Under the pieces are notes generated by a model, which was not told the origin of the DNA, did not search any database, and saw nothing but the letters and a program-made list of their open reading frames with translations. The position numbers and the translations under genes were made by a program. From Stenotrophomonas sp. SAU14A_NAIMI4_8 (GTDB lineage Bacteria; Pseudomonadota; Gammaproteobacteria; Xanthomonadales; Xanthomonadaceae), in assembly GCF_003086695.1 (NCBI RefSeq), contig NZ_CP025999.1, forward strand, positions 856,820 to 920,819: a DNA stretch of 64,000 bases, read 5' to 3'. Position 1 is the stretch's first letter, and each line of letters starts with the position of its first letter. Positions 19,624-41,852 of this stretch are shown piece by piece.

Positions 19624-20310
19624 ATGTTGGGAATTGGCCAGGGCATCCTCGGCATCGGGGCCTTCAAGCAGCGTCTTCCGCGGGCGGAGGAGGCGCTGCC
19701 GGGGCGCGACCAGCCGTTGCCGCTGCACAGCAACCAGCACTTCGTGAACAGCCACCCGCTGAAGGACCGCTTCGCCGGCCTGCAGCAGATCCGTTTCGCG
19801 CTGGGCTGTTTCTGGGGCGCCGAGCGCAAGTTCTGGAGCGAGCCGGGCGTGTACAGCACCTCGGTGGGCTATGCCGGTGGCATCACCCCGAACCCGACCT
19901 ACGAAGAGGTCTGTTCGGGTCTTACCGGCCACACCGAAGTGGTGCAGGTGGTGTTCGATCCGGCGGTGGTCAGCCTGGAGCGGCTGCTGCAGCTGTTCTG
20001 GGAAAGCCATGACCCGACCCAGGGCATGCGCCAGGGCAACGACACCGGCACCCAGTACCGTTCGGCCATCCACGCCACGAGCGAGGCGCAGTACGCCGCC
20101 GCGCTGGCCAGCCGCGAGGCCTACCAGGCACAGCTGGATGCGGCCGGTTACGGGCCGATCACCACCGAGATCGTGTACCCGGCACCGGCGTACTACTACG
20201 CCGAGGATTACCACCAGCAGTACCTGGCGAAGAACCCGAACGGCTACTGCGGCATTGGCGGCACCGGCGTGAGCTGCCCGATCGGGCTGGATGTGGAGGC
20301 GCCGCGCTGA
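19624..20310 (+). CDS. msrA: peptide-methionine (S)-S-oxide reductase
   Basis: Repairs oxidised methionine (S-epimer) in proteins. 228 residues. The catalytic motif GCFWGAER has its cysteine at residue 62; [18 protein letters not shown] and YRSAIH follow, and [23 protein letters not shown] with [12 protein letters not shown] near the end carries the recycling cysteine region. The N-terminal 55 residues match the long (E. coli-type) MsrA. Preceded by GGAGCGC; co-directional with DUF2007. Confidence 0.96.
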
Positions 20311-20378
20311 CGCGCGGAGGTCCGCCTGCGGCGGGCAATATCAACATCAACATCAACATCCAAACCGGCTCTGGGTTT

Positions 20379-20500
20379 TGATCGGTTTGGCAGGGCGGGC
20401 ACAGATGGCGGGACACGCCGTAAACCCGTCCATGGGGGCTCGGCCACGGCATCCATGCCGTGGACGGTCCCGCCATCTGCGCCCGCCCTGCCTTCGATCA
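20379..20500 (+). repeat. branched structured element, copy 1 (long stem plus two internal hairpins)
   Basis: The outer stem pairs 20389-20414 with 20467-20492 (26 bases, one mismatch), with an additional TGATCG/CGATCA pair beyond a small internal loop. The 60-base core (20411-20470) opens GGACACGCCG and holds two hairpins: CCCG/TGGG around TCCA, and a seven-base CCACGGC/GCCGTGG stem around the loop ATCCAT. The core aligns without gaps to copy 2 (20731-20790, opposite strand), and the stems co-vary. No gene overlaps it. Confidence 0.85.
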
Positions 20501-20550
20501 TTTCCCGGTGACGGTGGGTAAGAACAGTGGGTTGGTGACGAGCTGATGGA

Positions 20551-20590
20551 AAAGAAAAAGGACGCGGCCTTCGCCGCGTCCTTTTTCTTT
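20551..20590. terminator. strong bidirectional intrinsic terminator
   Basis: A nine-base GC-rich stem (GGACGCGGC with GCCGCGTCC) around CTTC, flanked by AAAAGAAAAA on the left and TTTTTCTTT on the right, so it works in both directions. It lies between convergent msrA and tal, and between the two branched elements. It is 240 bases from the msrA stop and 310 from the tal stop. Confidence 0.85.
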
Positions 20591-20710
20591 GGTTCTGCAT
20601 TGCTCTTGTAAAGCCGAGCCATGCTCGGCTGCGAGCAAGCGAAGCGCGCGACCCGCTGTTGCTCTTCCCTCTTTCTTCCGTGGCGGGCGGCCACCGGAAA
20701 CTGTCAAAGG

Positions 20711-20810
20711 GCGGGCGGGTTGGGTTCGCGGGACCGCAGGCGCCATGGATGGCGCCTACGAGCCTACACGGATGTACTTGCGGCGTGTCCCGCGAACCCA
20801 ACCCGCCCGA
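20711..20810 (-). repeat. branched structured element, copy 2 (opposite orientation)
   Basis: A perfect 23-base outer stem pairs 20712-20734 with 20787-20809. Read on the minus strand, the core (20790 to 20731) starts GGACACGCCG, is exactly 60 bases like copy 1 and has the same two hairpins with the loops TCCG and ATCCAT, but different paired bases (TACA/TGTA and AGGCGCC/GGCGCCT). A smaller palindrome (AGCCGAGCATGGCTCGGCT type) lies at about 20612-20632. Confidence 0.85.
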
Positions 20811-20836
20811 CCCAGCGCGGCTGTTGTCCCAGAGGT

Positions 20837-20859
20837 CAGTCGAGCAAGCTCGACTCTAC
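20837..20859 (-). repeat. single SMAG palindrome downstream of tal
   Basis: A reverse-oriented GTAG element (ending GACTCTAC) with the GTCGAGCaaGCTCGAC-type stem, 44 bases beyond the tal stop. It is identical in stem sequence to the copies near folA, prmC and ilvE. Confidence 0.85.
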
Positions 20860-20903
20860 CGAGCCGAACAGCCCGCCACGAGGGGCTCAGCCGTTGGCTG
20901 GAA

Positions 20904-21860
20904 TCACAGTTCCGAGCGGATGCGCTCGCGCAGCGCCTGCAGGTCTTTGGCGAAGGCGTCGATACCGGTGGCCAGCTTCTCGGTCGCCATCGGATCAGCC
21001 GCCAGGTCGGCCGCGAACTTCGCCGCGTCGATCGGGGTCACCGCCACGCCGTCGGCCGCACCGGCCACCAGCTTGCGCGGCAGCTCGCCGTGGTCGGCGT
21101 CAAGCTTTTCCAGCAGGTCCGGCGAAATGGTCAGGCGGTCGCAGCCGGCCAGCGCTTCGATCTGTGCGGTGGAACGGAACGAGGCGCCCATCACCACCGT
21201 CGGCGAACCACGGCGCTTGAACTCGGCGTACACGCCGCGCACGAACTTCACGCCCGGGTCTTCGTCGATGTTGGCCGGGGTCTGGCCGTTGGCCACGTAC
21301 CAGTCCAGGATGCGGCCCACGAACGGCGAGATCAGGAACGCGCCGGCCTCGCTGCAGGCCAGCGCCTGGGTCGGGTTGAAGATCAGGGTCAGGTTGCAGT
21401 CGATGCCTTCGGTCTGCAGGATGCGCGCCGCTTCCACGCCTTCCCAGGTGGCGGCGATCTTGATCAGGATCTTTTCGCGCGGCACGCCGGCGTCGGCGTA
21501 CATCTGGATGAACTGGCGGGCCTTGGCCACCGTCGCAGCGGTGTCGTGGGCCTGGTCGGCGTCCACTTCGGTGGACACGCGGCCCGGCACCAGCGTGCTC
21601 AGCAGGGCGCCCACGCCGATGGTCAGGCGGTCGGCCACGGCATGCACCACGGCTTCGCGGTCGCCGCTCTGCTGGCGGCCCCAGGCCAGTTCGCGCTCGA
21701 TCAGTTCGGCATAGACCGGCAGGTCCAGTGCCTTCTTCACCAGGGTCGGGTTGGTGGTGCAATCCACCGGCTGCAGGCGCTTGATCGCGTCGTAGTCACC
21801 GGTATCGGCAACGACCACCGACAGTTCGCGCAGCTGGGACAGTTTGGACGTGTTGCTCAT
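20904..21860 (-). CDS. tal: transaldolase
   Basis: Pentose-phosphate pathway enzyme that moves a dihydroxyacetone unit from sedoheptulose 7-phosphate to glyceraldehyde 3-phosphate. 318 residues, the TalB length. The Schiff-base lysine is K134 in [22 protein letters not shown] near residue 35, [24 protein letters not shown] and TVVMGASFR complete the signature. An AGGAG sequence lies upstream of the ATG. Fifty bases downstream of the rnk stop in the same direction. Confidence 0.96.
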
Positions 21861-39870: not shown

Positions 39871-41327
<1,457 letters not shown>

Positions 41328-41333
41328 GAGGCC

Positions 41334-41422
41334 GGGGTCGGATCCCTTTCCGCAGGAAAGGGCTCTGACCCCAGATCCCGAACGTGGGTCAGAGCCCTTT
41401 CCTGCGGAAAGGGATCCGACCC
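41334..41422. repeat. two inverted GGGGTC hairpins
   Basis: A forward copy (41334-41372) and its inverted copy (41385-41422) of the GGGGTCGGATCCCTTTCC hairpin family. Each copy folds by itself, and the two can also pair over some 37 bases. It lies directly after pntB and ends 11 bases before the stop of the next, convergent gene. Confidence 0.9.
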
Positions 41423-41432
41423 ATGCAGGTGA

Positions 41433-41852
41433 TCAGCGCGCCAGCCAGGCGCCGACCACCACGCCCACCGCCAGCCAGATCCATTCCATCGCCCCGTTGG
41501 CCAGGTTGGTCAGGGTCCAGGCCAGGTGCGGGCCCATGCGCAGCGAGGCATCCATCGGGTTCAGCCCGATCGAGCCGCCCATCCACGCACTGGCAATGCT
41601 CCAGTACGCCACCGCGCTCACCAGCAGCGTGCCCAGCACCACCAGGGCAATGCGCAGCCGGCCCGGACCCAGCGTGCCCAGGCGCAGCATGAACACCAGT
41701 TCCAGCGCGGTCACCACCGCCATCCAGCCGACCTGGCGGCCGGTCATCAGGGCCAGCAGCACCCAGGCCATGGGAGCAACAAGCAGGCCCAGCAGCAGCA
41801 TGAAGGGCCAAAGCCAGGTCACGGTCCTGGCACGTGTGGCATTGGAGGACAT
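41433..41852 (-). CDS. four-helix inner-membrane protein of unknown function
   Basis: 139 residues with about four hydrophobic segments (WLWPFMLLLGLLVAPMAWVLLALM, WMAVVTALELVFML, IALVVLGTLLVSAVAYWSI and MEWIWLAVGVVVGAWL in parts). I recognise no family. The start MSSNATRARTV is preferred because it gives a short basic N-terminus before the first helix; an in-frame start 17 codons upstream would reach into the sufT promoter. Divergent from sufT. Confidence 0.75.
   Translation of the reverse strand: MSSNATRARTVTWLWPFMLLLGLLVAPMAWVLLALMTGRQVGWMAVVTALELVFMLRLGTLGPGRLRIALVVLGTLLVSAVAYWSIASAWMGGSIGLNPMDASLRMGPHLAWTLTNLANGAMEWIWLAVGVVVGAWLAR

Follow-up and report, generated by a model that had tools for sequence, protein, structure and literature searches.

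The Csr/Rsm small RNAs (CsrB, CsrC, RsmX/Y/Z/V/W, and RsmU of Xanthomonas) present GGA in hairpin loops at several sites per RNA, within the motif CANGGAYG or CAGGA(U/A/C)G, according to the available parts of PMC7652899, PMC9308961 and PMC7694677. Each of these RNAs is a single locus with several to about 20 sites. In the same partial texts, the consensus for RsmA/RsmF in RsmV is given as CANGGAYG (PMC9308961) and the repeat unit of CsrB as CAGGA(U/A/C)G; SELEX yielded the consensus RUACARGGAUGU, and two sites can be bridged by one CsrA dimer when 10 to 63 nt separate them, with an optimum above 18 nt (PMC7652899). The accessible text of PMC9788540 deals with two other CsrA-related sRNAs, which are distinct from the repeat family reported here. 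Among DNA repeats, the REP/BIME families (SMAG in S. maltophilia; GTAG and CGTC families) are described in the available passages of PMC3733652 and PMC2613905 as intergenic, palindromic, present in high copy and paired or alternating, with some REP dimers lying within long palindromes; REPs measure 20 to 40 bp and carry a terminal GTAG or CGTC. MITEs (ERIC, NEMIS, RUP) are short, non-coding inverted repeats dispersed between genes and share terminal repeats. Titles, abstract openings and some passages of the literature searched contained no report of the present repeat or of a dispersed repeat with RsmA/CsrA sites; Xanthomonas, Stenotrophomonas and Xylella are not mentioned in PMC2267715.

In the window, by which we mean the whole 64,000-nt stretch of Stenotrophomonas DNA analyzed, two inverted-repeat elements facing each other occupy the intergenic gap between msrA and tal (Table 1). 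The best 20 matches of the tal product, a transaldolase, were all from Stenotrophomonas or near kin (94 to 98% identity), which assigns the chromosome to the S. maltophilia complex. The original prediction placed two oppositely oriented elements here, with 60-base cores at 20411-20470 on the plus and 20790-20731 on the minus strand, about two-thirds identical and linked by compensatory stem changes. Indeed, both elements were found at these positions, their cores agreed at 42 of 60 positions, and the compensatory changes held. The outer stems, predicted to span 26 and 23 bases, comprised 26 pairs in element 1, as expected, and also 26 in element 2, with a single mismatch in each (A.C at 20401/20480 and G.A at 20711/20810, respectively). 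When the core was written as a degenerate 28-nt pattern, the window contained two occurrences, compared to a mean of 0.05 in 100 shuffled sequences. Hereafter, the first-read strand is the plus strand for element 1 and the minus strand for element 2, and the complement is the opposite strand in each case.

Table 1. Genes and element parts in and around the msrA-tal gap (window positions)
Feature	Position	Strand	Remarks
msrA	19624-20310	plus	convergent with tal
Element 1 outer stem, 5' arm	20389-20414	plus	pairs with 20467-20492
Element 1 60-base core, two hairpins	20411-20470	plus	42/60 identity to element 2; family consensus fold
Element 1 hairpin 1 loop CATGGACG	20427-20434	minus	RsmA/CsrA-type motif
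Element 1 hairpin 2 loop CATGGATG	20450-20457	minus	RsmA/CsrA-type motif
Element 1 outer stem, 3' arm	20467-20492	plus	partner of 20389-20414
Spacer between facing elements	20493-20708	no strand	sequence by eye
Element 2 outer stem, 5' arm on plus	20709-20734	plus	pairs with 20787-20812; plus is the proposed RNA strand
Element 2 60-base core	20731-20790	minus	first-read strand of element 2 is minus
Element 2 hairpin 2 loop CATGGATG	20744-20751	plus	RsmA/CsrA-type motif
Element 2 hairpin 1 loop CACGGATG	20767-20774	plus	20 nt between the two GGAs
Element 2 outer stem, 3' arm on plus	20787-20812	plus	partner of 20709-20734
tal	20904-21860	minus	convergent with msrA

At gathering score, no Rfam family other than a tRNA and mraW was recognized in the whole window; the mraW RNA model matched on either strand at almost coinciding positions (41321-41435). 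A permissive Rfam scan of 20300-20900 returned 35 matches, none of which reached its gathering score, and this held for the CsrB/Rsm clan too: the RsmW model reached 14.5 bits on the plus strand of element 2 (E = 5.8), while 52 are needed. An automatic scan of 20250-20950 listed neither a promoter-like nor a terminator-like site (no GC hairpin with a trailing run of T, as in an intrinsic terminator). By eye, the spacer contains midway a palindrome with terminal A/T runs (20551-20590), which resembles a two-way terminator and was likewise absent from the automatic list. SMAG-like REP hairpins, also seen by eye, lie beside the elements at 20608-20632 (plus) and 20837-20859 (minus); one starts with GTAG, the other with GTAA. 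These SMAG-like units adjoin the elements as separate repeats, and identity of the elements themselves with SMAG/REP was ruled out by their size and the missing terminal tag.

Both elements are members of a dispersed repeat family. An exact pattern was found in 38 copies in the 4.48-Mb genome and in none when it was read backwards. The covariance-model search suggested with the original prediction was carried out on this genome and on relatives and recovered the family: with a model built from 22 copies and 150 first-look candidates scored, the genome yielded at least 124 matches at E ≤ 1, at least 113 at E ≤ 3e-4 and at least 108 at E ≤ 6.1e-9. Thus the surmise that this might be a known dispersed repeat was right as to dispersal, while no Rfam family corresponds to it at gathering score. 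No copy had its midpoint inside a called gene of this genome. Several genomes each hold about a hundred copies; G336, a genome of 2.4 Mb, has 104. Counting the own genome each time, the repeat was present in 32 of 61 sampled relatives, in 57 of 198 sampled genomes of the family (16 of 54 genera) and in 45 of 274 sampled genomes of the class, taken as Gammaproteobacteria (40 of 221 genera). Its distribution is patchy even within the genus, where 9 of 36 genomes had no copy at E ≤ 0.01. Phage and plasmid collections, each searched with one short query, and viral contigs, searched with two exact patterns, gave no match, which is a weak negative.

The unit is about 110 bp long; within it, some 60 nt of core fold into a three-way junction that sits on the long outer stem. 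In 43 diverse copies, 97.4% of the cells were paired, compared to 69.4% after shuffling, and none of 500 shuffles reached the observed value. Changes on both sides were seen in 25 of the 31 pairs, and the covariation score was 0.706, compared to 0.164 in shuffled alignments and at most 0.121 when the partners were slid. The proposed selection for a branched fold is therefore supported, and the wider alignment retained both the covariation and the 60-base core. The unpaired core bases were kept in distant members of the class, and the outer stems were unrelated between groups; the outer stem changes freely in sequence yet stays paired. In summary, the branched repeat is real and widely spread, covaries strongly and corresponds to no Rfam family. 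It differs from REPs in its length, its branched core and the lack of a fixed tag, and from MITEs in that the outer stem is its most variable part and only the center is conserved.

The mismatches in the stems were informative about the strand. Isolated mismatches, read on the first-read strand, were A.C in 86 and G.T in 15 distinct alleles of 227 copies, and A.C in 116 and G.T in 24 distinct alleles of 287 copies. Since they are A.C and not G.T on the first-read strand, the strand that tolerates wobble pairs is the complement, as these statistics show. The excess was strong in foreign copies (67 A.C, 6 G.T) and weaker in own copies (22 and 9; p = 0.029); it amounted to 20 versus 7 cells in G336 and was not significant in G342 (12 versus 6). 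It was present in both genome orientations and in both mutational routes (33 G>A versus 10 C>T; 17 T>C versus 2 A>G). Deamination or replication bias as its source was tested and judged insufficient. Furthermore, the more stable RNA was that of the complement in 157 of the 227 copies and that of the first-read strand in 65. In the msrA-side element, stem pair 3 runs from G-C (L135) through A.C (window) to A-T (L146); on the complement this series corresponds to G-C, G.U and A-U, so that the window copy is itself an intermediate.

On the complement, the loops carry a known type of protein-binding motif. Among the 227 copies, C-ANGGAY-G was found in hairpin 1 of 215, in hairpin 2 of 225 and in both hairpins of 214. 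The N of the hairpin 1 motif takes all four bases and its neighbors hardly vary; in hairpin 2, N is T in 224 of the 227 copies. Both loops carried the motif in 28 of 30 loci of G336, in 24 of 30 loci of G342 and in 16 of 19 class loci, a set that overlaps the G336 and G342 sets by two loci. In the window copy, the 20 nt between the GGAs fall within the bridging range of 10 to 63 nt given in the accessible part of PMC7652899. The genome encodes an RsmA with L4 and R44. The csrA gene was found in 32 of 32 element-bearing and in 26 of 29 other sampled genomes, and as it is present nearly everywhere in the sample, its co-occurrence with the element says little.

Some copies (L139, L140, L130, L131, L066, L089, L092, L097, L101, L107, L108, L117 and L118) have the loop of hairpin 2 replaced by inserts of about 85 nt, which are themselves composed of hairpins. 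All 13 distinct inserts have a CAGGACG loop, by construction, because the search pattern required it; all 13 also have a second AGGA loop, outside the search pattern, on a changing stem. Other inserts occupy the loop of hairpin 1, for example in L132, L156 and L135. The loops of the element thus seem to be insertion targets.

Taken together, stem wobbles and loop motif point to the complement as the probable functional strand, rather than to the strand first read. The best-supported mechanism, to which we give an even chance, is an RNA of the complement that would offer two RsmA/CsrA sites to one dimer. The conserved cargo of the inverted-repeat family would then be a branched RNA; the complement would be transcribed, its two C-ANGGAY-G loops, with GGAs 20 nt apart, would be bridged by one RsmA/CsrA dimer, and the copies would serve as scattered binding or sequestering sites. 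Judged from their sequence, the repeats may be scattered docking or decoy sites for RsmA/CsrA. Somewhat short of an even chance, and put forward tentatively, is the idea that a class-wide repeat with a dual site and about 100 copies per genome acts as a distributed decoy or is a selfish element exploiting the regulator; as a distributed decoy, it would set the free level of RsmA/CsrA. Like the Csr/Rsm sRNAs, the repeat has GGA in hairpin loops, but unlike them it is an inverted repeat in about 100 copies, with two sites per copy and a long, variable stem. If the loops bind RsmA/CsrA, an element-rich genome would contain dozens to more than 100 extra sites for its main posttranscriptional regulator that models of Csr and lists of its targets do not take into account, and an RNA-binding protein would have shaped a dispersed repeat.

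Several findings count against such an RNA. Most SELEX ligands in the available part of PMC7652899 have at most 4 pairs, fewer than the 6 or more of hairpin 2. The scanned interval around the elements is devoid of listed promoter- and terminator-like sites, and the A.C bias is weaker in the own genome and not significant in G342. The facing pairs of this genome, found in every gene orientation, leave no host transcript fixed. The relation to neighboring genes is inconsistent: the complement was the sense strand for 43 of 64 single copies amid tandem genes of this genome and G124 (p = 0.008), and among 30 loci of G336, in contrast to this lean, 28 had the proposed RNA strand antisense to their tandem genes, five of these 28 with a further overlapping frame. 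Moreover, near-perfect stems of at least 25 pairs exceed what RNA function should need, and it is therefore likely that a DNA-level process keeping the stems perfect is also at work.

This last point leads to the main rival of the RNA, a mobile palindrome of the REP/BIME type acting at the DNA level. Here, a nuclease or transposase would recognize the folded complementary single strand, the loops would be its contacts, RNA would be unneeded, and template switching or inter-copy conversion would keep renewing the stems. We regard this as possible but on balance doubtful. It is favored, besides the overly perfect stems and the patchy presence within the genus, by the arrangement of the copies. 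In this genome, neighbors less than 2 kb apart (n = 43) were facing in 41 cases, the present pair among them, in tandem in two (one ++, one --) and never back to back. In G123 (n = 65), 45 were facing and 18 back to back, forming alternating arrays, and in G124, 60 of 62 copies were solitary. High copy number and paired or alternating orientation are thus shared with REP/BIME, except for the single copies of G124. In G336 (L351, L364-L392), 85 of 92 copies on multi-copy contigs share the majority strand of their contig, and such same-strand runs argue that orientation there follows transcription or replication. In addition, copy number correlated with the count of Y1 transposases (PF01797; partial r = 0.43, p = 0.008), in a comparison in which PF01797 is broader than RAYT, the top element counts are at least 74 and the species are not independent. 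However, none of the four PF01797 genes of this genome lies within 5 kb of a copy, the G.T polarity of the complement is explained more simply by RNA pairing, and the loops match a known RNA-protein site, including the position expected to be free. The searches of phage, plasmid and viral sequences, weak as these negatives are, also lend the mobile palindrome no support.

Orthologous slots bear on the same question. At the tal-side slot, 14 related loci with an 84-nt match fell into 8 with one stem type, 5 with a second, unrelated type and 1 that was poorly paired, and the surroundings were conserved although the stem types differed. That stem types differ as a unit at one slot suggests conversion or cassette exchange among copies, as a DNA palindrome would predict. 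At a second locus, the element was kept in 10 of the 12 loci with both flanks (own included), with cores or stems exchanged, and was absent in 2 without a clean boundary; 18 further loci could not be judged. No target-site duplication at a clean empty site was seen at the two orthologous loci compared, which may count against a mobile palindrome and against a MITE. Stem exchange at orthologous sites makes the upkeep of perfect palindromes testable, and even if the element acts as DNA, what remains is a branched repeat in many genera that covaries strongly and matches no Rfam family.

An ordinary 3'-end structure on the first-read strand, i.e., a terminator or an mRNA-stabilizing hairpin at gene ends, is improbable: in many copies the stop of the upstream gene that is sense to this strand does lie about 80 to 100 nt before the model start, and in G336 the first-read strand is sense to the tandem genes in the same 28 of 30 loci, but the facing pairs of this genome lie between tandem (22), convergent (12) and divergent (7) genes, the first-read-strand mismatches are A.C and not G.T, the automatic scan listed no terminator-like site, and a plain hairpin does not need unpaired core bases conserved throughout the class. 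For this genome, a function confined to gene 3' ends was rejected on the basis of these facing pairs in every gene orientation, from which it also follows that facing is a property of the unit.

One long facing pair encloses a called gene, and several others enclose tandem repeats. The long spacers of L079 (3037118-3038064 of the genome), L080 and L083 contain tandem arrays of SMAG-like units and of GGGGTC-palindrome units. Finally, L188 is on a contig titled Bacillus subtilis SK7B5, the tal and msrA genes of which are Stenotrophomonas-like; this is probably a mislabeled or mixed assembly.
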